A stretch of DNA of 64,000 nt from Astropecten irregularis (taxonomy: Eukaryota > Echinodermata > Asteroidea > Paxillosida > Astropectinidae): the NCBI GenBank assembly GCA_963971285.1, contig OZ020255.1, positions 9,816,931-9,880,930 of the forward strand. Direction: 5' to 3'. A model generated the notes under the pieces. That model had not been told where the DNA came from, did not search any database, and worked only from the letters and a program-made list of their open reading frames with translations. Made by a program: the position numbers and the translations under genes. The first letter of the stretch is position 1. Every line of letters starts with the position of its first letter. Positions 4,818 to 61,746 of this stretch are shown one piece after another.

Positions 4818-4959
4818 CTTGAGGTCCAGGTGGACTATATTGTTCTGGTGCAGGTAGTGGACCCCTTCCAGGATCTGGCGTACTAGCCTGACGACGTCCT
4901 GCTCTGTGAAGGCATCCTCCTCGGAGACGCAGTAAGGATGCAGCTCTCCACCCGCAGCA
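4818..4959 (-). CDS. STK17: STK17 exon 3 (kinase hinge to catalytic loop)
   Basis: Residues 109-156: [53 protein letters not shown](H/Y)[13 protein letters not shown] is nearly invariant in STK17 kinases. Acceptor GTTATTCAG, donor CTCAAG|GTAAAA. It is the last exon of the gene visible in the window. Confidence 0.97.
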
Positions 4960-7900
4960 CTGAATAACAAAAGCAGACAACGTAAAAATGTTTTAAAATA
5001 CCAAGATAAAGCACTGACGATCTCTAGAGAAAAAACGATTTGAAGTTCTACAAGAAGTTCTTCTTGTGAAAATTAGCACAAGAGTTCTTACCGGTTCCAG
5101 GCCTTGAATTTGGTGTTGGAATGGGCAAGGCCACTTTTTTATTGCAAGGGGCACTTCCGTTGGAAAATCATAATGTCTATGGAAACATTTGAAGGGGGCA
5201 CGAAGGCCAAGATCCAGGGCAACGAAGGCCATGGCCTCCGTTAAATTCAAGGCGTGCGGTTCTTCTCAGAACTACCGTAAAGTTCCATGTATACGGCGCA
5301 CTTTTTTTCACCTCGGCAAAAATCAAAAGTTGGGGTGCGCCGTATACATGGGTACAGCCCGCTGGCGGTCTCGAGAGTGTGGGTTGTGATCATTGCGCCG
5401 CGCCAAGTTAAAGCATATGATGCACCGGCAGCAACGGTAACCAATTAGCACGATGTCTGACTGAAAATTGAGCGAATGATTCATGAAAAATACCACTTAA
5501 AAAATCTAATATTTCTTGCAATTGGCCAAGGAAAACTGAAGTGCAAAAATCGATAAGGGTTAGGACTAGAGACACCGAAAATAGCGTGCGAAAACACGGT
5601 TGGAGCGCCGTAATGTGCACGCGACGACGGGCGAGTGGACATGTGCATTTAATACATTACAGTAAATGCAATCTCCGGGCCGTGACGGTCCGATCGTTGG
5701 ACTATGGTCGGACGTACATATTTCATTTAAGAATGTCGTGATTGTTCAATAAATTATCAAACCTGTGTCTGCAGTCATTATTTTAATCAACAATAGTCAC
5801 GTTTCCATTGGGAAATATCCTTATCCTCATGGGTAAAAACGTCAAGTTCGCGACAGCGTTTCGCTGCAACGTGAACCGCCATTTTGATTTGTTCTAATGT
5901 AAAGATGACAATTTGTAAAGCGCGCGCAGATCGTCTAGCCAATCACAAAATTCGCTCGCGCTATTGCGGACGTAGGATGAACAATTTGAGGTGCAATTGA
6001 GCCAACTCGTACGCCGCTAAACCCGTACGCCGACCAATATTCTCCGTGCGCAAATTACCAACTCGTACGATCGGGTCGGCGTGCGAGTTGGTCGGCGACT
6101 CGGCGTATGGTTGGTACGAGTTGCCAGCATTCGTCGGCCCGACCACGTGCAAGTATTTCGTGCGAGGAAAATGCCGATAGCTTTGGATCGAGTCGAACGT
6201 TATGATCATGATAGTTGGACACGCAACGCTTGCAACAAATTGTCCACTCACACAAAAAAATACGGAACGGGAATGTACAATTGTCCGTTGAATATGTAGA
6301 CTGCTGAGGAAGTCTACTATGGTGGAGATCGAATACTGTTTGCACGTGTGCACGATAGGATGTAGGCCGCGCCGCACGCTTAACGATAGTAGGCCTACAT
6401 CATGTAGGCTCCGTACGTACTGCTTTCTGCGGCGTGGCGTGGCGCAGCGTTGTGTGACACTGACGCACTTCGGGCAAAACATCCCTGAAAGTTGTGAGTT
6501 GGATTGAGTAATTCATTGTTTTTATTTTTCTCGAATTTGAAATTCTCAATTGAAATACAAATCACAAATGAGCTGAGAAAAAATTAGCGATGCAGTTTTC
6601 TAATTTTTTTGGTCGTTCACGGCCGATTTTTTTTTTTTTCTGCCGGCTGATGTCAAAAGTTGGGGTGCGCCGTATACATGGGTGCGCCGTATACATGGCA
6701 CTTTACGGTACACCTCTTTCAATTAAGAGTATAATGTATCTGCAATTCTTACTTGGACCTCTGGGGAATATAAATTGTACTTGGGGCGAACAATGTTGTG
6801 TAAATACACCCCATGATGTTGACTTGTCTACTCACCCTTATCACTGAGTAGATCGAGTGTTTATTTAATACACAAAATGTTAACATGCACTTTAGCCTTG
6901 CTATGGAGGACTGTGCCCAGCTCCAAATATACAGTACAATCTATCCGCTTCTGTGATTAATGATGTCAAAAATCACTGATATGCGTTTACGGTTGCTTTG
7001 ATTATTTTTTTACCCAACTTCCGACTAATCTGGCCAATCAGAAAGCTAGAGATGTCTGTGTAGACATGTAGTCTGCGTTTTTTCACAAAAGCGTTTGTTT
7101 TTTTCAGCCTCTCGTCCAATTGCAATAAAAAATATTGTTCTAAAAACATCAAGGGGGGTTTAATGCGTTAAAAGTTACATTTCTCAAGAATGTATTGCAC
7201 AGATCTAGAACTTGATCTGCAATCCAACGGTTCCAACCATTGGTTTGTTCCATACAGATAAATAGTTATTCAGGATCCCAGAAAATGTTACCAGGAATTG
7301 ATTCCTTCCTACAACGTAAAAACGTAACGAAGCATCGGGTCTGGAATTTGGTTCCTACATGTAGCTCCGAAGCTGCAAGGAACACTTTTTTTCCTCAGAA
7401 AGGAACTTGGATACAAAGTCAAAGCATTTGCAAAAATATTTTCAGATCTCGAGTAAGAGGGCCAAATCTTAGGTAATAGAGAGTACATTATGATATGTAC
7501 GTTCATACTTCATAGGAGGTGCTGGCTTACAAATTTACAATGTAGTTGTAAATGTAGGCCTACAAGACCCGAATCGAAGCCAGCAGCTCGTCTGAAAGTA
7601 CCATGGAATCATTATCATTGATTGCCAAAAGTCCAGGCCTGAAGATGAACCTACTGCACATGATGATGCAGTGCAGAATCCACATGTGTACACAGTATAC
7701 AGTACTGTAGTTCATGCATGCTAATCTGGCAGGGGTTAAGCCGTACAGGTGTGACTGTGCCACTGCAGGAAATCCTTCATTGTTGACGAGTTCAGAGTTT
7801 CCCTGTACTCAACCTAATGATAACGTGATACTTCACAAACAGTCATTGAAGTGCAAGTCATTACTGAGGATGGATCTTCATCATCTGACTTGACAAAATG

Positions 7901-10900
7901 ACGCAACAAGGATATTTATGGAAGGGAGGGGGCGGGTCCTCAATGCATTTCTCTGACGAGATGTGGAATTGTAAAATAACCATGGTTTCCCTTGTACAAA
8001 TGTTTGATAAACACATCATGGTCATGATGGAGCACCAAAACCAACTTGAAGTCCACAGTACTTCAAGATTTTTAAAAACATGGGGCTACAGAGCCCATAC
8101 ACTGTAACTTTATGCTAGGATTGCTGACTCGAATTGGTCCAAATCCAATTAACATGATGCCACAGGGGCACTGTACTGTGTTTGATTTTGGCTATTAATT
8201 TTCTAGGGGGGAGCGGTTGGGTTGATGATCTCATAAAGTTAGAACTTGTGTAATATGATAAACAATCTAGAAAAATTGTTTAGGTACTGACTTAAGCTCG
8301 TTTGTGTAGCAAGTGCGTGCATTGACCATTGGCTGAACTGTTTGTTTTTGTTGTTTCCGAGAAGGAGACGTTTCATTTTCACAGAGCATTCTTCAACATG
8401 TGGAAAAACATTATCACCTAAGGAGGTCAGCATGCAGACTTATAACCGCATGTGGATCGGAGCATTGTCAAGGGTATCAAGAAATATAATGTAATTCAGT
8501 GAATGTGTACATTCAATATGTCTCCCACAAAGGCATGCATTGACAATGAGCCACCCACTTTCCATACTTGTCAAGTTGGGCCATGGTACTGTGTGCCACA
8601 CATATTAATTGAGTTCAATATCCTGAATACACAATGTACACAACTTTTGTAACAAGTTTTTGATCACTTGAATCGTTTATTGTGTGTGCATGTCGTTGCA
8701 GCTGCCCCAATATCAACCCGTGTGATGGGTTATTGTGGCCTACAGGTGAACCAGGAAATCAGAAACATGAACCCGATGTTGTTTACCGTCAGAACAATGT
8801 TACCTGGAGCAAATTATAACTAAACTCTCTCAACCCCCATCCAAAACCACATTTTTTTACACAAAGTGTGGAGTCAACAAAAAAATGTACAGGTACTGTT
8901 TTCCTTCCTCCATGTTATAACCATCGGGTTAACGGCAGAAATGGTACGATCAATTTTTATTCATCGAACTTGAAGATGTGAGTGGATCGCCATGGGAACA
9001 GGAATGGTACTGAACGGCAACTTTCCTAATTTTTTTTTATGTATTGATTTTGTGTACAACTGGAAACCATCACACTCACAGGTTGAGGGGGGAAAAAAGG
9101 ACATAGATCTAGGGCCTATATTCTAGGTTTCAAAAGAAATCCGCCGGTAAATGGGGTAATTGTAATGGCTTATCAGCACAATCTACAGCCGAAGTTCACT
9201 CATGAAGTCTCGATCAATCGCTTGCCCTGATTTTTTGCTGTCCAACTTGTCCCTCTACTCGAAATAAATGCCGACATTATTGGCTCACGACATCTAAATG
9301 GCAAGGTATCAGCATAGACATACGTGTACATGGAGTGTGCTTGAGATTTTAGCAGAGCATGTATTTCTTCAATGTTGAAATGTGTAACAAGGGCAGCGGT
9401 TAAGGGTCTTACATGCAAGTACAGAACTTCATTTTGGACTAATTTTGGAATGGCACCATGGGGGACTGGTTATGTTTGTTCAGTTTATCTAGGCGACGTC
9501 AGCCCGCGATAAAAAACCCTCAGATTATAGGCCCTATTGTAACATGGAATTGTTATGAACATGAAGGAACAATCCTCCAATCAATTTTTTAAAGGGGGGG
9601 GGGTAAGCAATTTGATATCATAACTTAAAGTAGTATGGACAGGATTTTGTTTTGTTATTACCCAAAAAGTTTGGGGGTGAAGTGACAAAGGATGAAACAG
9701 AATAATTTGATTTGTGCGAGAAACAAAATTTTGCCAGATCAAAACCTTCTGATCATCTGTATTAAACCATAATTTGCAGAGAGCTACATGTATATATATA
9801 TAGGCCCCCTAATAAAAAAAAGAGATCAAAGTATTTCTCACTCTCAGCCAGTTACAAGAAGTTGGGGATAGATTGGGTCTTTTGTTTGTTTCCATTTCTT
9901 AAAATTAAGTCTAATTAAAATCATGACAAAATACACTTCTTGAAAGGACACTTGATATGTTCTGTAAATGGCGTCTGTAATTTTTACACCTTTTACATTA
10001 CGTCAGAAGGTCAAATTAATCAAATAATTGCCTCCTACACAGCAATCTAAATCACAATGCAAGTAATCATCTTAGATTCTCTACTACGTAAGTAAACCGT
10101 GCTGAGAGCCTTCCAAGAACCTGGAGGTGTGTTGCCTACAACCATTAAACCCAATCTGTGCGTGGGTTTCACGGCCCATGCTGTCTATCTTTGTCCAGTG
10201 CCGGGGCACGTACATGTATATGAGTCCATGTGCCGGCCATATTGGCAAATCCCTGCACGAGCACTTCAATCACCCACTGTGCTCACAGGACAATTTCCAA
10301 TTTTCAATTACGCTCCCTGCGTCAGGGGCCTAGGTGTGGGAGTCGGCTCAAGTCTCAAGCCCTTTATTTATTTTCACAATTCTCCCAATTGTGTTTGAAG
10401 GGGGGATCTGTGTTGGCTAAAATGCACGTACGCAAGTGTACCTGTCAACGTGACAGTGTGACGGCAATGTGTATCACCTTTCAGACGTGATTGAGGAACT
10501 CAAACAAAGCAAAGACGCACAAGAAATGTTCTCTTGACTTTTTCCACTTCAATGGAACGAAGAAAGACAAAGAAACTAGGAAATTTCATACACGTACCTG
10601 CGCAATACACATGATTTGATTACAGAACAAAATGCCAAACTGTTCATATAGGCCTACTGTGTAGGCCTACTGTTTCTCAGCTGATTATACATTATTCATA
10701 AAGCACTAGTCTTTTCAGCAACATACATATAAATGTATAAATCAGACCTGTGAAATTGTGCACTACCATCCCATAGGCCTAGCTATAGAGGCATTATATG
10801 CTGTGAGCAGTTCATTAGTTCATGTAGAGGAAGAGGTCCTGGCAAGGGACTGCTTAGCTGGGTGAGGATTGAGGATAGGCCTAGCAGGGTCACTTTGTTT

Positions 10901-13900
10901 CCCAAAGTGTATTTTACGGTTCATTTTTGCGTTTGTCACGATTTTGGCCTTTAGCTTAACCACGGGCCAAGAAAGCAACGGACAAAAAAACTGACACAAA
11001 ATGCACTCTAATGAAAAGCCGGCTTAACTCAGAGGAATAATATTATTTCACCATGGTTCTAGCAAGAGCTCTTGTGGCCAGGCTTGTCCTTGGGCTGAGG
11101 TGAAATTTGAATGTATACAACAAATTCCCACAGGTAAACCCCTGGCATAATCAGCCTACTAATTAGTCGGGGCAGATTAAGCCAGACCATGCCCAGAACT
11201 GCCCTGTAGCTAGCCCATTAGCACCAGAGAGAATCCCAGGCTTTGGGATTAGGGTACCTACATGTATTCAAATGGCCTTCTACATGAACCTGGCCAACCA
11301 CTTTAAAGGTGTTTATTTGTATAGGTTCACACCAGACAACCATGGACACTCTTGACATCAGGTTTTCACTATTTCATTCCCTTGGAAAAGGGTGGGCATT
11401 TACACAAGAAAGGTACTCAGCCTGCGACATTTCCCGACCCACAGCATAATAAGGTCAGTGTGTGGGTGATGGCCAACACAAAAAAGGAAGTACTGTGTAT
11501 AAACTTAGTGTGGGGGAAAGGAAGCCTGAAGTTCCTTTCCATGGGTCATTCACTGATGGAGGAGTTGAAAGTGCAGGGTGAACTTGTCCTTTCCTCCGTG
11601 GAGAATACCAGGGGAACTTAGGCGATCTGCAGATGTGGTTTTTGTGCCACTTTGGTCTGAATGGAAGCATTGTATTGTGGTTGATGTGGTCGGTCTGTAT
11701 CCTAGAAATTTCTTACACGGCCGCAATTGTGTAGACATAAAAAGTTCTCTTGTACTGGTACTAGTACTAGAAGTAAGCCACCTTAGAATAAAATTCTGAA
11801 TTCTGACAAAAAAGGAATTTGCTCTGTGGTAATGTAAGGTATAGGCCTACTGTATTCCATAGTTTTTTACTCAATCCATCCTTTTGAATTATTTGAAAAG
11901 TTTCAAGAAGCCACAACAGGAACAACCGAATGTGGTTTCTTATCCCCAATATAAACACAATCCTATTTGACCATTTTGTTTGGTCTTTCATGGAAATGAT
12001 GTAAGTAGGCTTAGGCGCAGTGCAAAGTTACAATGTATTCTGCCTTGGTACAACCATGGAGGAAGAAATAGACTCCATGGTACAACCAATTTTTACCTCC
12101 ATGGTACAACAGTCGATTATTTCTTGCAAACAGTTATTATTGTGCAAACCTTTCCTGACAAGCCCATCACACAGGGCATATGTAGTGTATACTTACAATT
12201 CTAGTACCAGTATGACTTCGTTGGAAGTTTCAAACACCTCATGGAGTCGGATCATCCGGGGGTGGGCGGTGGACATCTCCAAGATGCGAATCTCCTTCAG
12301 GATGTCCTCGCGGCAGGACCGGCCCATCTTGCGCTTGCGGACAAACTTGGCCGCAAAGTTCTTGCCACTGTCCTGGCACGTGCACTTGCGGACCACGGCA
12401 AATCGACCCCTGGGATTGGAGAAAAGGAAGAGGAATTTTAAGGAAACAATCTTTTTCCTGATTAGGAAAACTGCCTCAAAGTCATGGACCCTTTCGTAGA
12501 TCGCCCAGACATAGTGAGGATGGGAATCTTCACTGTGGAACAGCATGCACTGAAACTTTGTACGGGTTAACAAGATCACACAGACAGGCTATTTGGGTTG
12601 ATTTCACCAAACTCTTCGAAGTTTATAACTTACTATCAATTGTAGGACTTTATGAGGCATTGCAGGCCAACGTAGGGTACGATCGATCGTAGAGCTTCTT
12701 GAAATTGACCCCAGGATTTGTACACAGACCCCAAACTCCCTTGGCCCTGGTTTGGTTTTCCTGTCTTTTGAATTATTTCCACAGATGTCTGAATTTTCAA
12801 AGAGAAAAGCCCCTTAAAAAAAAAAGGAGGCCTTGTCCTTTCATAAATAAACTGCTTGTCTATTAAATCATGCAGTTCATATTTATGATCTTCTTGCTTG
12901 TTTTGTGGATCAAGAAATGATGAAAATGTCTTCAGTAACTTTAAAACCCATATTTCTAAATAATTTTTCTCTGCCTATATACAGTATGCTATGTACAATA
13001 TGCCACAGCTGCATAATCAGTTCTAGGCCACTACAATTTTTTATTTACAATGTTTATAAATTTGACTGAAGTAACACAATGTCTAACATGTCATTTCCAC
13101 ACAGCTTAAAGTCAGAAAATTGGTTTTTATTTAGGGCCTACTTTTTATTGATGTTTAGTTTGCTGAATAATTCAGAATAATGTGTAGGTCTAAACTGAAG
13201 TGATGGCTATTAAATGGGAGACTTTTGGAGAGTCGGTCTTGAGTCAACAGCGCACGCGCACGCAATACAACGCGCGCATGCTCACAATTGCACAAGCATG
13301 GTTTGCGCGTGCGTTGTTGACTCAAGACCGACTCTCCGAAAGTCTCCCATTTACAAAACTTGACAAATCAAAGTCTTGTCAACTTCAAGTAAAGGGAGAC
13401 AAATCTGTAAACTTGTGTACAATACTAGTTATTGTCATTTATAAATGGGGTAAAACTGGCCATATCTTGATTGGTTGGGCTCATTTTGAAATTTGAAATG
13501 ATATTTCAGTCAACGGTTAAATAACAAGTTGGCATTGCTGGAACTGTGTTTGCTTTTGGCAAGCATGACAATACAAAGTATGACACTGTGTTACCTGTCT
13601 ATGGGTGTGGGCCTTTGCCTTATAGTAATAATGCCCTGTGAGAGAATATTGAACAAGCAAGAGCTGACTAAAGTTCAGTTTGCAGTCTGATGCAGCAGCA
13701 GCATGGCTTGGGTGTTGTTGCATTGGGATGGGTATTATCAACACCATGGACACTTGTACTCCATGATCTTTCCATGTGACAATCCCCCACCAAACTCTCC
13801 CAGGAATTCCAACTATGCAGCCGGCTCGCTGCTGTTCTTTGCTTTTGTCACCCAATCCCATTGTTGCTACTTTTCACGCATACCAGTTCCATTTTATCAA

Positions 13901-16900
13901 GGATTTTTTATATCCCGCTTTTATGCAACTTCTGTGGTTGCATTGCCTGGGTAGTAGGTGCACTGGTACATGTACTTACACCCCAGAGCGTCCAGACATA
14001 GGCCACAGATTAAACATGTGCCATTAACGCCAGTTTGAGGTGTAAGAATTTGACACTGTCTCCAATGGTTGTTGACTGAAACAGAATAGCGTGTACAATC
14101 AACCTTTTCTGTTCCGGGGATTTGTAGGGTTTCGCCGGAGCCCATATGCTCCAGACAGTCTCACCAAATGACCAAAGCAAATAACTGGTGTCAACGTTCT
14201 GTTTTCCAGATCATCAAGACAAGGACAAGGGGGGCACGATTGACTATTTTTGATCAGTTTGTGTCAAATTAATGATGCCCTGTTGGGAATCTGTGGGGAA
14301 TGGCCTTGCTCCATTAGTACCAATTGTACTTCCTTTGTTTCCCCCATGAAAACAGGCTCTAAAAATAACCACACATCACAAGTACATTAACAATGTGCGC
14401 AATTAAGTGTCCATGTCTCCTTGCTCATTTAACTGTCTGATTCACGGCAACAACAAAAAGTTTAAACAAGGGCCATAAAAACAGTTCGTCCGAAAGAGTG
14501 ACAATGTCCTGTCTGCAGATTTCTCCAATGAAAAGGTTCCCGAGTGCTGCATTTTGAAAGCAGACGTGTGAGTATAACTATCAAAATAACGTGACCTTTT
14601 TCGTTTCTCCTCCATGTTTTCAGAAGCAAACATGGAGGAAAGAGACTATTTCAAAACAGTTGCTGAAGGCCGATGGATCGAAGCTGACGAGGCTAGCAAA
14701 AAAAAAAACCTGTGCATGTAGGCCTACATGTACACGATATGTAGGCTACACATATCTTATCTGAAAACATCCGAAGGTTATCCACTGCCGACTACATGTA
14801 GGCCAACATGTACATAGTTATCTAGATGCATATTAATATGAATTCCAACCCGGATTAATCAATCAATTAATCCCACCCACCCCCCTCAGTCTGCGGATCG
14901 CTACCAATTTTCATTTCGATTAATAATTAATCCCTGGTCAGATTAGAAAAAAAAAAAAAAAAACTTTAGCTGCCTTAAAGAAACTTAGGGGGGTCAGGTC
15001 CTGCTTTCGATTCCATTTGAATCTTTATTTATAATTAAAAGGAGCCCTTCATGTTGGGACAAGAAATCAATTTTGCCAGCATGGATGTAATCTTGCAGTC
15101 CTGGGGGCCAGACCATTAATCCTTTCCCCCACCTGGCATCCCGGAGTCCCATGCTCGAAAGATCTTCAGTTCCTCTGACCATGGAGGAATAAAATCCTCC
15201 ACAATCTGACATCCAGATCCAGGGCAGGGCCTTGTCAGTGTACATTTACCAAATAAGGACGGTTCTGCAACCCACTTTATTGCGAAGAGTCTGGGACACT
15301 TTCCGCTCAGACTAGTGGCCAGCACATCGACTGGCCCAATGCTGCTCCGGAAAAGTGGCCAGGTAACTTTTAATGAGACAATTAGGCCTACACTGTAAGT
15401 CTTAAAAACAATTTAAGACCACCGTCTGCCCAAATCCTGCATTGTAATTTACATCACGTACATTTAAATGTACATGTACATGGTGTAGGTCAACATAAAG
15501 TGTACACTGGTACATTTCTTCCTCCATGATGTATGGCAGTATTCATACCAAATTGTTGGACTCCAGCCAAGTTACATAGCTGCCAGCCAGTCCCTTAACA
15601 ATAACAAAGACCTGGGCCCATCCCTTCAAACTTCCCCACCTCCTACAAAATTGGGTACTTATTTTGTCCAATTTGAGAAGATAATGCTTCCTGATCAAAA
15701 TAGCAAGAAAAAATGGATTCCCAAATGACAATAGAAACCGAGCTTTATAAAAAAGCTTAAAATTACATGCCCACTATTACATTTACAACAGAGAACAAGT
15801 AGGCCAACAAACTATTCAGTGCTCAGCTCACTTTAACTGGAGTACATCTGTATTAAAGCAAATAAAATACCCTGGAAAACCTGGATGGGATTCACTTATT
15901 GTTCCATTCTGATGCGGCGACGAGTGACAAGTTATATAATAGGCCCAACCTGCCAATCAATGCTTGATCAATTAATTTGCTGTCAGTGCCTCTGGTCCTT
16001 GCTGAATGTGATGGACTGAATGGATGGATACGCATCTTTTAATTTGACGGTTGCTGAACATCAAAACTGGTAGTGGCGGCTAAACTTTGAAGAGCTATTG
16101 GATAGTTGGATAAGGGAGTGCTGTGTACTTTGGCTTACTCTACCTACTAAGCCCATAATTTTATGAACTTCCTTATTCCATGTAAACTATTATTCCATTG
16201 CAGAAGCATGGCTTATTAATTAATGCAACTTCTTGTAATTGTGAATCCTTCAGGCCATTACACTCTGCTAAGCAACAACAAAAAACTTCCCAGTTTTTTC
16301 ATAACTGTACTGAAGCTAGTATAACATAGGATGAAAGTTGAAACAGTGTTAAACTAAAAATGGACATTATTATTGAAAATATACGTACAACTGTAGGCCT
16401 ATATACTTGTAATCATGGACATGTACATGTACAACTACAAGTGTAGCGGTGTAGCCTAGATACTTTGGTCTCTTGGTGGCCTGCAGGATTGTTCCTCGAT
16501 TCAGTGACCGATGATTGGTTTTTGGTGTCCTCAGGCCAGCGGACCAAGTCAATGTCGACCCTTGTATAGGCCGACACACTATGTATAGTGTATACATGAA
16601 GTCTGATACACTGTACAGCAGTAACAACTTAATTGACAATGAACATGTTATGGTAACAAACATCTGCATGTATTTGATTTCTCCATGGTCTAGGTGAAAC
16701 TACAAAAAAGTAACTGTTTTTGTAACTTTGTAGCTAGATGGAGACTGGAAAGGGGGGGGGGCTGGCTAGGGGGAAGGTCGGCTGGAAGTGAGCAACAAAA
16801 CTTAACAAAATACTAATGACCTTGTTGGGGAGACAGTTCCTCCTGAATGGACCAGGACAAAGCTAAAGCCACCACTGAGAGAAACCCCTCAAACTCTGAC

Positions 16901-19900
16901 CAAATGGTCCCACCATGGCCAGCCTGTGAATCCAACCACATATCACCAGCTACTAGTTCACTACATGGTCACACCACACTGACCCAAATGAACACCCTTG
17001 GGTCATCTCTTAAAAGCTACTTACATCAAGAACTTTACAAAAACAAGCGAAATGGACCCCAGTGGCAATTATCGCTTCAAAACTGAAAAGACTGAATCAA
17101 CCAAGGACAGATTCTTGGTGCCAGGGAACTGCCAGATAGCCCCAAGGATGGCTGGAGGTAAAAGTGACCAGGAAGAATTTCTTTTGTTTTTGTATCCCCC
17201 TTCCTTCCGCTCATTTCAAAGTTTATTGCTGGTGAATTGTCAATATAAAAATACTGGACAGGATGTTCAAAAAAAGACAAAAGTAGGATACGGCCATGAA
17301 CCCCTTCTGTAGCTACATGTACACATGTAGCATAGGCAGCCATAGGCCTACAGTGTATGACCTAACACATCAAGATATTATCACTGAGAGTCCACTCATC
17401 AGGATAGATGATTAAATGAATGGCAGCAAAACAATTTGGTACTGTTTCAATATCATACTGTTTCTTTGTAAAATCATTTTCAGAAAGTACAGATCTATGT
17501 ATAATGTACGTGTACTACCGGTATGCAAATTGCAATACTGTACTACTGTATTATAAACAGATTTTGCAAAAATGCAAAAACACATACAAACACTGATAGT
17601 TTTTGAGAGCAAATTTGCATTTATGCCATTGTCAAATGCCTGGCGGAGGGGGACTGGAGGGGGGGGGGGGGGTGTGTTTACTCATTTCTGTATGATTCCA
17701 CTGTACAGTGTAGGCCTACAATGTAAGAACATGCACACTTGGTGTACATAAAATGACACATGGGTCTTGATTGTACACGTAACGTTAGTTGGACTTTCTT
17801 GCAGGAAAGAAGATCTTATCTACACACATCTATGCACATACTGTATTTTTGCCCTTCCTGAAGCCTTGAAGGGTGAAGGGGACAAGCAAGGCCATTATGA
17901 CATTTAAATGTAGGCCTACACATACATGTACGTGAGTGGGGGGGGGGTGAACACAAAAGACCAATTCCTGTGCCTGTTTTGATCTGTCTTGAGCTGCTTT
18001 CTACTTCGCACAAAATGCGACTGAAGGTTTTCCTGACGTTGCCACGGCAACCGATCAACCAAACATCAGGCGCCATCCCAGCCCACGAAGATTATAAATG
18101 CATGGCGGAACTTGCATTGTGCAAAACACTTTTGTGTGATTTGTCCCTATTCTAGGATAGAATGCGTGGGGGGCCAAAGCTTTTGTTAAACCTGTCTAGA
18201 GTTAAAAGGGAGAGGAGGTGTGTATGAACTTCACAGGAGGCAATGAAGGCTACTGCCCGAGGTGCCCCTTTAAATTGAAACGCATTCTTATAGATTCTTT
18301 CCATATTTCTGTCATTGAAGTACGCTTTAATTAACTAAATTTTCAGGCTGATATTTTCTTCTGCAAAGGTTTAAAGACCAACAGCCGTGTATTTAAAAAC
18401 AACAACAACATTTTAGGCTTGAGGTTTCACTACCAAAAGTGCAGGTATGCCTACATGTACTATAGGCCTACATGTACATGTTTGAAACCAGCTGATGGGT
18501 ACTGGTAGATGCAGTGTTAAGTGGGAGAAATTGTTTTTGTAAGAAGGTCAAAATGTGGGATGTTGTACAAAACTTTGCTTCCATCTTCACTGTTTCATTC
18601 CTTTATTGCAACCTGCATGATTGAATTCACCCAAGTGAAAATTTTCTTTTTCCAGCACTCACTTGATAACGAGTTCAGTTGTGGAATTGGACAGTGAGAA
18701 AATGGTTCTCTTCGGGGACAACCTGATGTGTATTCACATCTCGGAATGTTTTTTTTCTCCCAGAAATCGATTGAACTATATTTGCTTGGCACTGTTGGCA
18801 CTGGCAGCCTGGAAATATATTGGATTCAATTCTTGCTCTCTCTGCTGAGGTTGAAACTGGACGCAAGTGTCTCTACACAGAGCAGAAATAACACAATGGG
18901 CACATGTAGGCCCAGCCTTGTTCAAGCACATGTTGGTACATGTGAGAGCTTTCAATTGTGCGGCCTTCATTTCTGAATTGTGATGATGATTAAATTATGG
19001 GCACCTTTTTTACATCCCTGTGCAAGTATGTGGATGGTCAAAAGGAATGTGTTACGTACAGTTTTAAAAAAGGAATGCATTATTATGTAGGCCTACAGTA
19101 ATATGGTTTCATCAGGATGTATCTGATCTCAGACAAGCTGACAAGTTTCTCGGAGAAAAGGCAGCCTAAGTACTGTAAAAGCTCCATTCACTCTGGAGTC
19201 CGGGATTGACACAGTCTTCCAATGTACACAATAATAGCCCCACCAGCTTAAAGTTAAGAGCATTTCATTCCCAGGTATTCCATAATTTTCCTTGGATAGC
19301 AACCAAGGATGCCGGCCTTCGCCCAAATCACGCCCCGCACCCCCTGCTGACAAGTAGAGTCACGTCACGTTGCCAACCATGTGCCTTTGCTTTTAAGCCT
19401 GTTACGTGAATTGCTGTGTAGACCTCCTCGATGTTGTCAAAAGAATTTATGAAGTCAGCATCATCATAATGGCTTGCACCAAGGCAAGCTTCCAGTTTTA
19501 TTGAGTCGTATTGTCGTAAATCCAGATAAAAAACCTTGGATAGAAAATTGCAATCCTATGAAACAAAAATAAATAATAAACAGGGGGGAGGACAGGAATT
19601 TGAGGACATACATGTAGAAAGCAGTGGATTTTGAAGTTTTAATCAAAATTCTATCTTCAGGGTATTTCCTGGATTCTTGATGGAATTACCATATGAATGG
19701 AATGGATGGAGGACGTAAGCTAAACAAATATGGAAATTTTTTGTTTTTTAAATCCCCTGGATGTAAAAAAAAAAAAAAAAAAAAGTGGAAAAAACCTTGG
19801 AAGTGTTTACTCCATCCTTGTAGTTAATGCAAGTGCAGTCATGGGTGCTTTGGCTGGACAAACATGTGTAGATGTACAGGAGATGCGTGCCACAGCATGT

Positions 19901-22891
19901 TTGCTCATCCCAGCCTTAGCAACTGGTGTTATGCTGACCATGTGCTTATCGTGCTGACTGTGTGAGGCAATGGCAGGTGTATTTCCCGCTCTCAGGGTCA
20001 AGAATTTAAGCAATGCTTCCTTGTCAGTTCTTTGCAGGATACTGTCTAGTAGGGGCACCAAGGCAATGACCAGGAGCACAAGGCAGTGAGTGACCAGGGG
20101 CACCAAGGCAAATGCCCTCAGCTCACTGCATGCCCCATAGTGAATGGTGATAAAACGTCTGCCCCTACAGTTCCTGAATGTGCTATAGATACTGTGAATG
20201 ACAACAAACCCAAATACAGCAATGTACAAGAACTCATTGAACTGTAGGCCGGTACAGTACATATTACACATGTATGTATTTTGCAAGTTGAAATTGAAAA
20301 ATTTACTTAAAAGAGGAAGAAAACTTTTAAATTTATGCATACATTGTATTTGCCACGTCTATGACTGAGTCCTGTGGGTGTATTACACAAGAACAGAAAC
20401 AGGGCTGCTGAAAAGATGACAACACCTTGTCATTGTCACAATAAGAAAGATGGTGACACAATTTCTTAACATGGGTTCTTTTGACAACAGACATTTGAGG
20501 GGGTGTCGCCTGGGATATTTCGCTTTAAGTTCACCTGGGCCACGCAGGCTGGGCGTCAGCAGATTTAACTAAAGAGGAGAACAGTTTTGGGGTAAACAAG
20601 TCATAGAAAGTGCACTTCGCTCATTGTGTGAATTTATGACAGCAGCGAACTCTGTTGGAAACTAGGGTGGCATAACGTGACGAAACGCAACAAGGCAAGC
20701 ACATTTTCTTATGTTGACACTTGACAAAAGACATTGTTTGCGTCCATCAATTTTGCAATAATGGTGCAATCGTGCGACAGACTGCGATCCAGGGAGGCAT
20801 GCAAAATAGCTACAGTGCCAATGCCAACAATAGGAGTTTGGGGGTGATGACGAATGTGCACGTAATTGTTGTCAAATGTAATTGCACTGTGGCAGGGAAT
20901 TCACCTATGAAAAGTGAAAATGGAGATGGCGTAAACAAGTCTCGAGTTCAACATGAAAAATGATACCGTGCAATAATGCATACTGTACATTACAGGAAGT
21001 GACATAAAACTTAAAAGATTGCGTCATACATTTTGTTTCTGTTTCATGTGTCTAAATGAGCCCACACATCACTAACCAAAAGCAAGATTCCATAGGTATC
21101 AGCCCAAATTTGGAATTGTTTTTTTTTTTAGTTTCTCTCACTCGCCTTACAAAAATCCCATAGCCGTCTAGTCGAGCGTCTGTAGAGCCCTGACTTGGGC
21201 CTTTTTCTTTGTGGGTCAAAATATGCAGGCGTGCAGCTATCTAAACCAAAGATTGTACCGCACGTGACACTACCCTGTCTGTGGTAGGCCTAGGAACCAT
21301 TACCAAGCCATTTATAAAACATCAATAATTCCCAATACTCCGTCTGGCCTTGCTGGGCGCTGACGTAGACGAGCAAATATGAATCAATACTGTACTTTCT
21401 CGCTCGATGATCGAGGCCTAATGTTATTATCCCCAAATTCAGAATATATTTCAAAAATTGAAATGATAAATCACCTAGAATAGAAGAACTGTTGGAATGT
21501 TTATTATATTTCAGTCACATGTACCCTTTTTCCTTTCGCTACCAAACTACTAACTTTCACAATAGAGTAGACTGATGATTGATTGATCTATTAAAAAAGC
21601 ATGCCTTTTCATAAATGAAAACTGATTTTTTTTTTTGTCACATGACACTTAGGACCTATGGGCCTACATAATTAAATTTAATCTAATCTTCATAAATCAT
21701 ACTAATGTAATTTCTAGTGTCAAAATGTGTATACCCCTTCATATTAATATACATTGCTTCAGTTTGCTTGCCAAGTTGGCAAGTTATCTAACACAATTTT
21801 GTGTACACGTATACAAAAACTTAGGCCCCTAATGTTGAAAAATTTGCAACTGGCTGTAAAATGTAGGCAGTGTATTTTTTGGCCGGCACCGACATTCTTC
21901 TTGCAAACGCTATTTTGCTGTTCCCTAATTCCCATTGGCCAATTTGCGCCAAAAAAACGTACCTCTGTCAAAATAACTTCTAACTAAGTTACAGTTTTAG
22001 AGAAAGGAGGCCAGGATGAATCGAGAATTGTCCTATCAAAAGAATAACTGTGCCGGCAAAATATACACTTCCGTACTACACACCAACGTAGAGCTGGATG
22101 GCTCAGTTGGTAGAGTGCCATAGTCTGTACAGTATTCAGGAGGTCACCGGTTCGAATCCCGCTCCAGTCAATTTTTCTTTGTTCACTTTTCAATGAAAAT
22201 ATTCACTTCCCTAAAATGTAAGTTAATCAGGTTTTTCCATTCTCAGAAAAACCATGAGATACCATAGTACCATACATGTAATGGGACACGGGACGTACAG
22301 CAGGACCTGGTGGACAATTTTGGAATGTTATTGTCTCGCAATTTACAAACTGAGTTCATTTTCAAAACCCAATTCCCCTTTCAAAAAGAATTTAAATTTA
22401 AGATTGTCAATACAATAGGCCCAATATTTACATTTTACTAGGGCCTATAGGCCCTACTTTTCTTTTGAAAAAAAGAAAAAAGAAATCATTATCACCACAA
22501 TTAAAAATTGTACAATTTCAAAATATTACATTCAAAGTTTTCTTTAAATTTTAATGAATAACTAGGCCTAACGCCTAATTTAAAAACAAAACAAAACTAA
22601 AAAAAAAGTTAAGTTAGGCCTAATATTTAAGTTAAACAAAACAAGCAAAATATAAAGTAAAACAAGCAAAACAAAAAACAAGACAGACTTACCATGTAAC
22701 TTGTAAATGATGAATTATATAAATTCTAGACTTCTTTCCCTGATAATTAAGTGAGTGGGCCTAAATCAAATTACTTACCTTCCGAGTTCATTCTGGACCG
22801 TGTACGACGCGTGGAAATCTCCTTCCCGAAATAGGTCCGTGACGTCCCGTGTCACAACACGGCTATTCATACTCAGTTCTCGGAGTGGCAT
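4818..22891 (-). CDS. STK17: STK17/DRAK-type serine/threonine kinase, 5' part only (156 residues)
   Basis: Homologue of STK17A/STK17B (DRAK1/DRAK2), DAP-kinase-family Ser/Thr kinases linked to apoptosis and lymphocyte signalling in vertebrates. Three exons (22779-22891, 12197-12409, 4818-4959) join in consistent phases to 156 codons. Visible kinase features: Gly-rich loop ELGRGRFAVV (G37, G39), ATP-binding Lys59 in AAKF, hinge EVILVLEFAAGGE, and catalytic loop HLDLK (Asp154), where the exon ends in phase 0; STK17 genes are cut by an intron at the same place, as far as I recall. The activation loop (DFG), C-lobe and C-terminus are missing; I searched 1-4800 on the minus strand for the expected PQNILL block and did not see it, so they lie beyond the left edge. 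Introns of 7.2 and 10.4 kb. The start ATG has an in-frame TAA upstream; a second in-frame ATG lies 7 codons downstream. Confidence 0.93.
4960..12196 (-). other. STK17 intron 2
   Basis: 7.2 kb between exons 2 and 3. Holds the TA-flanked 1.4 kb transposon (5275-6708); elsewhere AT-rich sequence with poly-G (about 9594-9603), TAGGCCTA palindromes and no credible exon. Short open frames do not resemble known proteins. Confidence 0.7.
5275..6708. mobile_element. 1.4 kb TIR element with TA target site (pogo/Tc1-mariner-like, non-autonomous)
   Basis: Left end CCGTAAAGTTCCATGTATAC and the reverse complement of the right end CCGTAAAGTGCCATGTATAC match with one mismatch, flanked on both sides by TA (5273-5274, 6709-6710). 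Subterminal GGTGCGCCGTATACATGG blocks are repeated and inverted at both ends. The inside is CpG-rich with a CCAAT box, a CCGCCATTTTG motif (about 5877-5887) and a cluster of CCAACTCGTACG motifs (6001-6125). A 173-codon minus-strand frame (5961-6482) shows no transposase motif, so the element is non-autonomous. Family assignment rests on the TA duplication and end style only. Confidence 0.75.
12197..12409 (-). CDS. STK17: STK17 exon 2 (kinase N-lobe)
   Basis: Residues 38-109: [45 protein letters not shown]..., [17 protein letters not shown]. Acceptor CCAATCCCAG, donor GAATT|GTAAGT. Strongly similar to STK17A ([20 protein letters not shown]). Hinge residue is Phe (LEF) where vertebrates have Tyr. 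Confidence 0.96.
12595..12712 (+). mobile_element. Family C MITE
   Basis: Starts GGGTTGATTTCACCAAACTC and ends TTCTTGAAATTGACCCC; the internal ACTTACTATCAATTGTAGGA block matches copies at 28512, 36079 and 37835. Confidence 0.8.
13211..13353. repeat. 143-bp near-perfect hairpin (possible MITE or RNA hairpin)
   Basis: Left arm 13211-13260 (starting TAAATGGGAGACTTTTGGAG) pairs with right arm 13304-13353 over 50 bp with two mismatches, around a 43-nt loop; the inner arm is CpG-rich (CGCACGCGCA). In plus-strand RNA both mismatches become G-U wobbles. Possible TA flanks. I see no second copy in the window. Confidence 0.85.
19807..20340 (-). other. 177-codon open frame, unrecognised
   Basis: ATG-initiated frame with hydrophobic stretches ([20 protein letters not shown]) that come from a short internal DNA repeat (CCTTGGTGCCCCTGGTCA-like), and a C-terminal Ala/His/Thr-rich part. 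No homologue recognised, no splice context, lies inside the STK17 intron. Probably repeat-derived, not a gene. Confidence 0.15.
22070..22205 (+). mobile_element. tRNA-derived SINE, copy 1
   Basis: A box-like GGCTCAGTTGGTAGAG and B box GGTTCGAATCC in tRNA spacing, followed by a tail TTTTTCTTTGTTCACTTTTC shared with the copy at 48520. The T-stem and acceptor stem pair poorly, so this is a SINE head, not a functional tRNA gene. Confidence 0.75.
22779..22891 (-). CDS. STK17: STK17 exon 1 (start, residues 1-38)
   Basis: Begins [20 protein letters not shown] and ends ...YTVQNELGR, where ELGR is the start of the kinase Gly-loop; donor GGAAG|GTAAGT joins exactly to GGTCGATTT of exon 2. No 60-codon frame exists here; found by looking for the missing N-lobe start. 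The upstream in-frame stop argues that this is the true first coding exon. An alternative start is M8 (22870). A plausible 5'UTR acceptor (CACCACTTCCAG) sits at about 22966. Confidence 0.85.
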
Positions 22892-23450
22892 AGAAATCCT
22901 CAAAACCAGGTCTTATTTTCGCAGTTTTTCCACTCCAATTCGTCGTTATCCTCGTATTATCACTGCTGGAAGTGGTGCAGATGAATAACGTCGACTTTCT
23001 GGGTACAGCATTCGTTGGTTACTGAGGCAAAACACGGTTTAAATGGACATCATTTGAGTTGTAATTTTTAAAAAATTGTCGTCTGAACATCTAACGTTGG
23101 ATCCTTTTGTGCACAACCACACACTACGTTACGAAGTCCGGAATATAAAGCAGACACTACAGACAGTGCAGCAAAACATCCGCTAAATTTCTCTCAACTG
23201 GAACCGGTGGACATGTGATAGTGTCATTTCCTGAGTCTTTGAGTAGCCAAGCATTGAAAAAGACGTCTTTTTTGCAGATATTTGGCCGAGTTTTTGTGAT
23301 TTCCGTCAACCACGTCGTCCTACAGCAATGTGTACAGCTGATCTGACTTTTTTTTGGCCGGCTGATATGCAAATTTCAAAAAATGAAACTGCCGCGTTGA
23401 CGAAACTACGCATGTCTACGAGTCAGTGGTTCTGAAACGGTTTCTAATCC
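22892..23450 (-). promoter_or_regulatory. Candidate STK17 promoter/5'UTR region
   Basis: Immediately upstream of STK17 exon 1 and locally richer in CpG than the flanks (CGTCGTTATCCTCG, AACGTCGAC, CACGTCGTCC, GCCGCGTTGACG). No TATA box is evident. A strong splice donor CCATG|GTAAGT on the minus strand at 23631/23630 with an acceptor near 22966 suggests a spliced 5'UTR. Confidence 0.4.
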
Positions 23451-25017
23451 TCCAAAAGATAATGATGCGTTTCGTTTCAATTAATCAAGAATTTAGTCGC
23501 ATTAAAATTAAAAAATTAATAAAGGTGTAATTTTCGTCTGTTCAGTACTTTTTTATAATGTTATTTGTCTTCAAAGCTGTTATTTTGAGGGAGAAATACA
23601 AATAAAGCGCTTGGCATTGTAGAAACTTACCATGGAAGTATTCCACCAATCAGCGGAGCTTCTGTGTTTTGGAGACTGTCATGTAAATAGCAATAGTGGG
23701 ATTCCCCCGACCGTGTGGCACCAACTCGGTGCATTATGATCACCTGTAAAGAATGTTGTGGTTAAATTAAATTATCATTTTTGGCTAACCAAAAGCAGAC
23801 AGAAATACTACTAGTGGCAGTGCCCACACCTAAGTTAAGCCGAAAGGAAAATACTACATTAATGTAGATTATAACTTGTATCGCGTGGAGTTCATTCAGA
23901 TCAAAGCTGCATGCATTGTTTGGCCAATGGAGGAATCCCTCATAATCTCCCGATGCTTTGAATAATGTCTGGTGAAAATGGGAAAATCCTCATTCTGTTG
24001 CTCGTCGTAGTCCGTTTATGTACTTTTTGGGGGGTCGGATTTATATTTTTAAAAATGCATACCATTAAGCAGTCTGTTTATAATAGCCATTTTGAAAAAC
24101 GCATCTGTCCAATGTTGGGATTCTACGAAAACAACTAAAACAAAATTGAACAGGATATCGAGATATTGACAAAAGAGACTAACATTTCTTCCAGTAAAGG
24201 GATCTAATGTATGCACATGTATGGGATGGATTTGTTAACGTTATCAATTTCTCCATACTAAGCAAACAGGATTAAAGATTTGTTAATACATGTAATATTG
24301 AAGGCAACTCTACGGATCGAAACAGCAACTGAGATGTCGCCACACCCAGAATTTTGTTCTACAACAGTTTTTGAGATGAAAGACTCAATTCCATGCTGGG
24401 GAACAGTTATTTAGTAAAATCATGGAGGAAGGAAAGAGATTCCATTGTAAAAGTGGCTTGATGTCTGTTAAAAAATACACACAGTGGGCAAAATTAATGC
24501 CATGCGCCAGACAGAGCGCGCGCAATATAAAAAGTAAAATAATAATGCCATATCTAATCTAAAGAGGGCGCTATTTATACAAAGAAATGGAATCATTTCA
24601 GGGACGATGAAAATCTACAATCGAAAACAATTTTTAAAGAGTTGAATATTGTGATATTTTAATAAAGTTTTCTTGAACTTTATATATATGTATGTATTAT
24701 ATATACGATGTACATTTCAAAATAATAATAATTGTATCAATTTGGTAACGGTTACAAGTTATATACTTCATTAGAAAAGAAATAATTTTACAAAATAAAA
24801 AAGTTGAGAATTCTATTAGCCACTGCGACCAAAGCCACAAGGATGCATTTTTTCAAAACAAACGCAGGCATTAGGGATATACATGTAGTAATGTCAGCTT
24901 ATTTCAAATCAAGTTTTAGTGGTCAATCTTTTACAGAGTCAGTGTTCGTTTGTTCTGAATAATGTAAAATAAGAACCAAAAATTAATGTGGACGAAATAA
25001 AATTATTACTGGGTAAT

Positions 25018-25332
25018 TTAAAGGTAGTATCATACTTTGGTAGCATACTTAAAAAGAAATCTTCACATATTATTTACTTATAACTTACAGGGTATAAAGA
25101 TGGTGTTGGTAGAAACATACCGTTAAAATACTGCCTGAAATGCTGTATTTATCCAGAAAAAGAGTCAAACCAGTGACCAAAAATAAAAGAGAAAACAATT
25201 TAGCCTATACTGTGGCCGTTTTCACTGTTTCCTCAAAAAGTGGGCACCATATGGGACTGAAATTTTCACAGATATTTCTGCCCATGAATCTGTATTTCTT
25301 TGACAAAAACCAAAGCATGATATTGCCTTTAA
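25018..25332 (+). mobile_element. Family G MITE with TTAA ends
   Basis: TTAAAGGTAGTATCATACTT at the left and the inverted CCAAAGCATGATATTGCCTTTAA at the right (given in part here: GATATTGCCTTTAA). Same internal order as 55999-56381 (ACAGGGTATAAAGATGGTG, GAAATGCTGTATTTA, TATGGGACT). TTAA at both ends suggests a Kolobok/piggyBac-like target preference (inference). Confidence 0.8.
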
Positions 25333-27126
25333 GCATTATTAATTTGTTTTAGTTAGCTATACTCGAATCAGCCCCACGTCTCGTTTAGTGATTGTAGTTA
25401 ATACGTGTTTCCTAAATGATTTCATATTATACATTTCGTTTCTTGACAGTGAAAATTACTTTCAGGCATAATTTGCATTCGAAATGCACACGTGCTTCGT
25501 CACGGAACGAGTAGAAAATTGCATTAATAATAATTCTATGCTGTTGTCTGGCTCAAAACGGGGTTAATAGTGTAGTGCGAGAGGTGTGTGACAGATAAGA
25601 CGGCAAACGACAGATACATGTAGTTGATCATACGACACAAGTAACAGCGGTAATGACTCGACAAAAAAAGTGATGTAGTTTTTATATAAAAACACACTAT
25701 CGAAAGCGCAACACGTTTGTAGTAACTTTAAGTTGTAGATGAACATTGAACAGCGCCCTCATTGGTGGAATTGGGGTACATTGGAAAAAAAATATTATTG
25801 GGTAGGATAAAATAATTTGGATTACGTCTAGAATTGTGCGGAATACAGCGACTTCTTCAATATTTTTTGTGTAACTTCGAAGAGGATTTCTATCTTAGGA
25901 AATGTGTCAGCTTTAGAATGAAGGAACAACTTAGAAAGTATATAGATCAATGCAACAATTATACGTGAATACTAAAGGGTGTTTTTTTGCATAGATCATT
26001 GACACAAAGCAATTTTTCAGGAGGGGGTGGGGGCTTTCTTTTTATAAAAAGATGTTTGCATTAACCAAATTAATCCTGTAAGTCTTAGTTTGACAATTCA
26101 CACAAATTATATACTACAAATTTGCATACTTCTGCTTTTATAATTTGAATGATATGATATACAACTGCTATTATTTTGTTTTTATAATATAATTACATAA
26201 TGATTCTTTTTTTTCCCTAATAATTATTGACAATACATGCAAAATATTAACAGGTCTTCGTTTCAAAATGCTATTTCCCAAAAAAATAATAAAATAAAAA
26301 AATCATTAATTAATACGGTTTACAACTGAAATGTGCATAACTGGCTTAAGTTTGTACAATTGTTTCATTATAAAAAAAAAAGAAAAGAAAAAGAAAATTA
26401 TACAGGAAAATGACAATTAAGGTTCAAAGGTTACATTATAATAATAGCCTCAATTTGTCTTGTTTTATCAGTTTTTCTTCACCTTATTTCAGGAAAAAGA
26501 AAATCACTACATATTTATATTTTTGTCCACATTGCTGGAACATTGAATAATAATCATGTTCCTATGCACATGTGCAGGTACAGTATTCAAATATTATCAT
26601 AGTTCACAAATTTATACAAAGCTTTCTATCACGAATCGCGTATTTTAAAAATTTTATCGCTGTAAAAAAAGAAGAAGAAATTCTAGCACAATAAATGACA
26701 TTTATGCCTAAATTCTGAGGAAACTACAAGAAAAATAGAAAGAATGCCGACTGCATAGATCTATAAATATATAAATATCGTGGTCAAGGTGGAAGAAGTC
26801 AAATCAATTGTAGAAATTTTTCGTTCGTGATTGAAGAACAAAATTAGCACAGTTGTTGAACTGAAATGAATAAGTAAAGAAGTAATTACCAAAAAAAACC
26901 CAAAAATTGAAATAACAATTTTTGTTTTTAAAGTATACTGTCCATGTTCATGTAACATGTTAGGGTGAATTTCAAAACGTTAGGATTTAGATGGTACTAA
27001 AATGCAATAGTTATTTTTTTTGGAAGATTTCTAAAATTACAAGCTTTGATAGGAGATAAAGAAATTATCCTTGACGCTGAGTTCCAATTTTGTTTTCCAT
27101 TCACCTAGTCGCATAAACTGGGATAG

Positions 27127-27215
27127 AAATAACAAAACACTAAGATTAATCTTAAGATGAGTTGTCAGTATTACCATGGCGATTTGCATTGTGACATCAC
27201 ACATTGCTTAGCAAC
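27127..27215. mobile_element. Family H palindromic repeat fragment
   Basis: GATGAGTTGTCAGTATTACC and TTGTGACATCACACATTGCT match the block at 63063-63180 (GATGAGTTGTTCAGTACAG, TTGTGACATCACATGTTG). Boundaries approximate. Confidence 0.55.
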
Positions 27216-28158
27216 TATCACAGCATGGGTCCGACACAAACCTTATCATCTGTTCTTTCTCCACGGTCTGATATCAAATGATCTCCATACAACATCAAAG
27301 CTTTAAAATATTTTCCAGAAATCTTCACACGCATCTCTGAAATGTTTTCAACCCTAAACATCCGATGCATAACACAGACAGTACACTCTTAAGAAACCCG
27401 AAAGGATGCAAAGTGATATTTACAATGAAAGACTGCTTTGAAAACTGCCTAAGATTTATATTTTGTTTTCGTAAAACGGTGCCAAAATTCTTGCCAATTT
27501 GTCATGGATATGGCTACTGTATTAAGCACTGATTGTAGCTTTATAATTCATAGCAGAAACTTGTGTGCTTATTAATGCTTGCAGGTTTTGTAAGTTATAT
27601 AGAAGGGGATTTGTGACTTTCAGTTGCAAATGGATAATATCACTCTCAAAAAATTGTGCAGAATTCCGTGGCCTAGTCCTGTCAGCACTGAATTGTGGCA
27701 GTGTGTCTGACAATTACTTGTTGAGCAGGGTCATGAAATAGGGAAATTAGGGAACAAAACCCTCAAAGTGGGCCAATTTATAATACCAGTAATGAAGGTG
27801 CAATGCCAGCAAAAACACACCAACAAATATTCTTACACGTGGTTGTGACTTGTTTTACATTTTGAATGAGCACATCAGATATTTCTGGGTTTTTTGGAAG
27901 GGTAGGGATTCCCTTTTACAGCCGACACTAGAGGGCGCCCTTTACATGATTTCCTATACAATTTCTGGATGAAGTTGGATCAAATTCGCCACAAGAGGGC
28001 CTGATCTTGAGTCTGTTCTGTAGACGAAGTCACATAGGCCCAGTGAGCCGAGATTTGCATGGTGCTCATGAATTCATTATACGTCCTTGATTTTCTTCAT
28101 AGCAATCGATTCTAGGGAAGATTTCTCCAAGATTGTTGGTGTTTTTTTAGGGGTCCGC

Positions 28159-61746
<33,588 letters not shown>

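Follow-up and report, generated by a model that had tools for sequence, protein, structure and literature searches.

A HECW gene and an STK17 gene lie in tandem in the genome of the sea star Astropecten irregularis, which raises the question of whether this linkage predates the vertebrate genome duplications and, if so, what might have kept it. We analyzed a stretch of 64,000 nucleotides, hereafter the window (C19:9816931-9880930 in an assembly of 475.7 Mb and 168 contigs), together with 100 kb of flanking sequence added on each side.

Gene models and identity of HECW and STK17

The HECW model was obtained by chaining exon frames via splice sites and comprises 1574 residues plus a stop, the stop codon being at 28159; its exon edges are partly uncertain, chiefly where the second modelled exon begins. 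The gene and its main parts are listed here in window numbering.

71,059 to ~70,706 (outside the window), minus strand: first coding exon of HECW, with the ATG and the beginning of HECW_N that the window exons lack (flank reading)
28159..60475, minus strand: HECW up to its stop codon, modelled in 23 exons (splice-site exon chain, Pfam and PDB)
41695..43323, minus strand: long low-complexity exon of HECW between C2 and the first WW (exon chain)
28159..31502, minus strand: HECW exons encoding the Pfam HECT domain (exon chain, PDB and Pfam)

The HECW exons matched the Pfam families HECW_N (PF16562), C2 (PF00168), WW in two stretches (PF00397), HECW1_helix (PF18436) and, C-terminally, HECT (PF00632), and the CFNRLDLPP region of the last exon is presumably the catalytic cysteine site. 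Among the best 60 of 138 PDB matches were chains of both HECW1 (3l4h, helical box) and HECW2 (43jx, HECT C-lobe). Within the same best 60, the HECT C-lobe scored 226.1 bits to HECW2 (43jx) vs. 134.6 bits to SMURF2 (6fx4), each over 122 residues, an equal-length comparison that covers these two chains among the NEDD4-type ligases. Short motif patterns did not locate exon 1 of HECW on the minus strand of the right-hand 12 kb of the window. When 10 pieces of the flanks were put to Pfam, eight matched, and one of the 10 was the HECW N-terminus; with this exon added, the HECW_N match, which spanned profile positions 55-119 from the window exons, spanned positions 1-89. The initial annotation had ended HECW at 61,746, which is wrong since the first coding exon, with its ATG at C19:9887989 (i.e., 71,059 in window numbering), lies beyond the window.

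Across the 475.7-Mb assembly, two of the five places listed for HECW1_helix were over the cut-off, and both are exons of this gene. Judged by this marker domain, HECW is single-copy, which bears out its earlier description as a single gene. A frame of 114 residues at 57278-57619 (minus strand), Ser/Arg/Pro-rich and with coding-like codon use, lies between HECW exons; it was weighed as an exon and left out of the model.

The completed STK17 has 466 residues and was read from the following exons.

22779..22870, minus strand: first coding exon of STK17, ATG at 22870, an in-frame upstream ATG also being present (splice-site reading)
12197..12409, minus strand: second coding exon of STK17, kinase N-lobe (splice-site reading and PDB match)
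4818..4959, minus strand: third coding exon of STK17, ending in HLDLK (splice-site reading)
about -15,160 to -17,785 (outside the window), minus strand: last three exons of STK17 (flank reading)

An end of STK17 at 4,818, as first proposed, had to be abandoned, three more exons lying 15.2-17.8 kb past the left window edge. The first 149 residues already gave STK17A and STK17B as top PDB matches, and the completed kinase scored 380.8 bits to STK17A, 352.3 bits to STK17B and 293.7 bits to the best DAPK (PDB chains). Since STK17A and STK17B both outscore the best DAPK, the kinase is an STK17; it is 28 bits nearer to STK17A than to STK17B, a score gap that alone does not date it before the duplication. 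The exon translations contain the AAKF lysine, HLDLKPQN, DFG and APE, which we take to be the catalytic motifs.

Arrangement of the pair and age of the linkage

On the minus strand the order is HECW, then STK17, with 5.29 kb from the HECW stop codon to the STK17 ATG and no stop-to-stop frame of at least 80 aa on either strand within 20964-28186; the completed pair spans ~89 kb. The founding observation of this study, that HECW lies directly upstream of STK17 on the same strand at a distance of 5.3 kb, was confirmed: both genes are real, adjacent and in that order.

In vertebrates, the HECW and STK17 copies are, we assume, transcribed in the same direction. Regarding their adjacency, the available excerpts of several papers give gene orders. 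For the first copy, the table order on cattle chromosome 4 is BLVRA, COA1, STK17A, HECW1, MRPL32, PSMA2 (PMC7655849); in birds, STK17A, HECW1, MRPL32, PSMA2 and C7orf25 lie on one side of COA1 in conserved order (PMC8709867); and a human 7p13 gene list runs HECW1, STK17A, BLVRA (PMC4791866). For the second copy, the table order in turkey is DNAH7, BIRC5, STK17B, HECW2, GTF3C3 (PMC7460020), and in pig STK17b and HECW2 fall within one small associated interval of 0.4-0.7 Mb (PMC3016419). The vertebrate neighbors that the initial annotation had named are found in print, as far as these excerpts reach, for STK17A-HECW1 (cattle, birds and the human list) and for STK17B-HECW2 (the turkey list and the pig interval). 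Both loci resemble the window in placing HECW next to STK17 and differ from it in being duplicated copies with other flanks: COA1, BLVRA, MRPL32 and PSMA2 in the one, GTF3C3 and others in the other, none of them recognised here. Putative loss of STK17A, at a breakpoint beside HECW1, is described for more than a dozen rodents in part of one of these papers (PMC8709867); therefore the constraint on the pair, if any, is not absolute. The fly Hecw is on the X chromosome, as implied by an excerpt of the Hecw paper (PMC8446043), and the open-access literature yielded no paper with both the names Hecw and Drak. A pattern search for relatives matched 18 stretches in genome contigs and four in viral contigs, none of which was a relative.

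To describe the surroundings of the pair, a coding-bias scan of the 264-kb stretch (at least 249 segments) was read by eye, a procedure that may miss short exons. Two exons of NDUFS1 lie downstream of STK17 on the same strand, the nearer ~25 kb beyond the STK17 stop. Human NDUFS1 presumably lies on 2q, as we take the HECW2-STK17B locus to do, roughly 10 Mb from STK17B. Beyond NDUFS1, the plus strand carries DED and helicase genes; in that region, C19:9731000-9761000, gene pieces encoding a death effector domain and a DEAD/ResIII helicase occur on this strand, similar pieces appearing twice, and to our eye they resemble RIG-I-like receptors with a DED instead of a CARD. On its upstream side, HECW is flanked by a Pao-type retroelement and by several receptors of the rhodopsin type, pieces of which occupy C19:9926800-9954500; one 3' piece is nearest to galanin receptor 1 among solved structures (best 60 of 601 matches). 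BLVRA, COA1, MRPL32, PSMA2, C7orf25, GLI3, DNAH7 and GTF3C3 were not recognised within 100 kb of the window in the coding-bias scan read by eye. Since these vertebrate neighbors were not recognised nearby while the pair is intact, it seems to have survived its close surroundings, with some linkage persisting at chromosome scale.

The window pair and the printed vertebrate orders represent the same order in distant lineages. By our arithmetic, the chance of finding the same order and strand is ~2e-5 if a genome of 25,000 genes were scrambled, and ~4e-4 if the two genes were merely confined to one of 20 chromosomes; with the chance this low in both cases, common ancestry is the more plausible reading. 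The window pair is in all likelihood the unduplicated form of an ancestral tandem HECW-STK17, which was copied whole into HECW1-STK17A and HECW2-STK17B. We infer this ancestry across lineages from one non-vertebrate genome and the printed vertebrate orders. The proposal that the linkage predates the vertebrate duplications is supported by the printed adjacency of both vertebrate copies and by the unduplicated HECW found here.

Ancient microsyntenic pairs, or genomic regulatory blocks, were reportedly treated by Irimia et al. in 2012. That ancient microsynteny is held by cis-regulation is an established idea, according to an excerpt of a more recent source (PMC8851819). As described there, genomic regulatory blocks share with HECW-STK17 the keeping together of adjacent unrelated genes, one possibly hosting the other's regulatory elements (PMC8851819); they differ in that HECW-STK17 is known here from gene order, the regulatory element being hypothetical. 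By analogy, the closest precedent is PDI/RhoGDI, which would make the HECW-STK17 pattern one of a kind already known. As far as the excerpted text goes, this is likewise a tandem of unrelated genes running in the same direction, which echinoderms and older lineages have as a single pair and vertebrates as three; however, that work included tests of coexpression, shared enhancers and protein contact (PMC5722932), whereas HECW-STK17 is known from the gene order of a single non-vertebrate genome and from published vertebrate orders. HECW and STK17 are absent from the main texts of two papers (PMC8851819; PMC6292497). Among open-access main texts, no paper joins HECW, STK17 and microsynteny, and none names HECW1, HECW2, STK17A and STK17B all together. 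The double HECW-STK17 pairing may therefore be undescribed in the open-access literature, supplementary tables aside.

What may have held the pair together

We tentatively propose that the ancestral pair was held together by cis-regulatory entanglement. Elements controlling one of the two genes, in the simplest case STK17, would lie in the large introns of HECW or in the short gap between the genes, and a break between HECW and STK17 would cut them off. The gap contains a dispersed repeat at 25018-25332, and 7.1% of it is repeated elsewhere in the window; because of this dispersed repeat, the gap is not under constraint throughout. If the linkage persisted for a reason, this bears on both vertebrate copies, and variants in HECW1 or HECW2 introns may then act on STK17A or STK17B yet be assigned to the wrong gene. 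In the excerpted text, one paper tags a striatal methylation site within the body of HECW1 with both HECW1 and STK17A (PMC5351932), and another reports association signals in the STK17B-HECW2 region (PMC12374252). An undivided pair outside the vertebrates is a natural place to seek a shared element.

It is also possible, although somewhat doubtful, that the pair is ancestral with nothing holding it, slow rearrangement having left some pairs together by luck. NDUFS1 nearby, presumably on 2q in humans, suggests that the whole chromosome segment is conservative, as such passive inheritance would have it. Microsynteny, moreover, is widespread among animals: shuffled genomes yield 45, 48 or 56 blocks, vs. 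256 new blocks assigned to the bilaterian ancestor, in the excerpt of the microsynteny study (PMC8851819). However, the close flanks differ from those of vertebrates while the pair is unbroken, and the two vertebrate copies kept their adjacency too, which speaks against luck.

A third explanation concerns the sequence of the gap itself, for which two features are relevant.

22871..28158, minus strand: interval from the HECW stop to the STK17 start, AT-rich (GC 0.32-0.33 at 24-28 kb), its transcribed strand depleted of canonical poly(A) signals
24658..24663, minus strand: sole ATTAAA in the gap on the transcribed strand, AATAAA being absent; candidate HECW poly(A) signal

The transcribed strand of the gap holds one AATAAA/ATTAAA, where Markov models of orders 1, 2 and 3 predict 13.2, 12.2 and 12.1, respectively; the Poisson P of 2.6e-5 to 7.5e-5 carries no correction for having looked. 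By these models the gap ranks second, second and first lowest, respectively, of 394 overlapping stretches of equal length on both strands. The opposite strand has 13 signals vs. 14.9-16.3 expected. Dinucleotide shuffles agreed, with AATAAA at 0 vs. 6.2 expected and ATTAAA at 1 vs. 7.0 on the transcribed strand, and 9 vs. 8.7 and 4 vs. 8.3, respectively, on the other. Elsewhere on the same strand, signals numbered 15 vs. 13.3 expected in STK17 intron 1, 32 vs. 28.8 in the HECW body, 12 vs. 13.2 upstream of HECW, and 45 vs. 40.9 between the stop of STK17 and the NDUFS1 exons, where earlier exons of NDUFS1 itself probably lie as well. The depletion, noticed post hoc in a single interval of one genome, is no more than a lead. 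Together with the low GC, it would fit transcription across the gap or, alternatively, a HECW 3' UTR of ~3.5 kb whose end lies near 24.6 kb.

Such a pattern would be consistent with transcriptional coupling, i.e., polymerase continuing past HECW and across the gap into STK17, or a very long HECW 3' UTR nearing the STK17 promoter, in which case a break between the genes would harm transcript ends. Canonical poly(A) signals are scarce on the gap's transcribed strand while the other strand is normal, and the AT-rich sequence at 24-28 kb would suit a 3' UTR. However, ATTTA is also low in the gap (10 vs. 20.0 expected on the transcribed strand; 15 vs. 18.8 on the other), and part of the depletion may therefore reflect a wider lack of A/T words. 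Furthermore, variant signals such as TATAAA are present at 14 places in the gap, Pumilio sites are not enriched (1 vs. 0.7 expected), and the HECW and STK17 copies are presumably farther apart in mammals, which we count against coupling. We consider coupling an unlikely cause of the linkage. Of the two causes suggested in the initial annotation, STK17 control elements within HECW introns and readthrough, both of them hypotheses, the poly(A)-signal depletion bears on readthrough, and indirectly. More specifically, an old co-transcribed or end-coupled unit can be imagined, in which HECW transcription would reach or cross the STK17 promoter and the gap, itself transcribed and kept nearly free of poly(A) signals, would have held the pair since before the vertebrate duplications; on the sequence features at hand, this strikes us as very unlikely. 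A search of the gap for known structured RNAs gave one weak match (rliD, E 0.54, 15.6 bits vs. a gathering score of 50).

Finally, that the adjacency arose separately here and in the vertebrate ancestor is improbable: reliance on one non-vertebrate genome leaves it some room, but the shared order and strand (the latter presumed in vertebrates), the chance of that order (2e-5 to 4e-4) and the unduplicated state of HECW speak against it, and cis-regulatory entanglement of an inherited pair remains the reading that we tentatively adopt.

Repeats and other elements in the window

Several further elements were seen in the window, a number of them within HECW introns. An orphan histone-type 3' stem-loop (Rfam Histone3, 37.9 bits, 47045-47089, plus strand) lies within a long-armed inverted repeat in a HECW intron, at 46954-47092; no histone coding sequence was recognised beside it by eye. 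Another HECW intron carries ~22 copies of a 72-base tandem repeat at 31997-33596. Since the unit is a multiple of three, frames of up to ~250 residues stay open on both strands, and these are not genes.

Repeated, tRNA-like stretches occur at 54018-54186, 48523-48625 and 22081-22194, with an Rfam tRNA match at 54018-54090. ARAGORN found no tRNA at these stretches, which are probably a tRNA-derived dispersed element. The last HECW intron holds two nested inverted repeats at 28336-28533, with a similar stretch near 43.5 kb, and the adjoining sequence to 28653 is similar to stretches near 12.6, 36.1 and 37.8 kb; these are dispersed elements. A dispersed repeat of ~230 bases is present in at least four copies, at 1-231, 31625-31860, 34552-34785 and 51325-51574.
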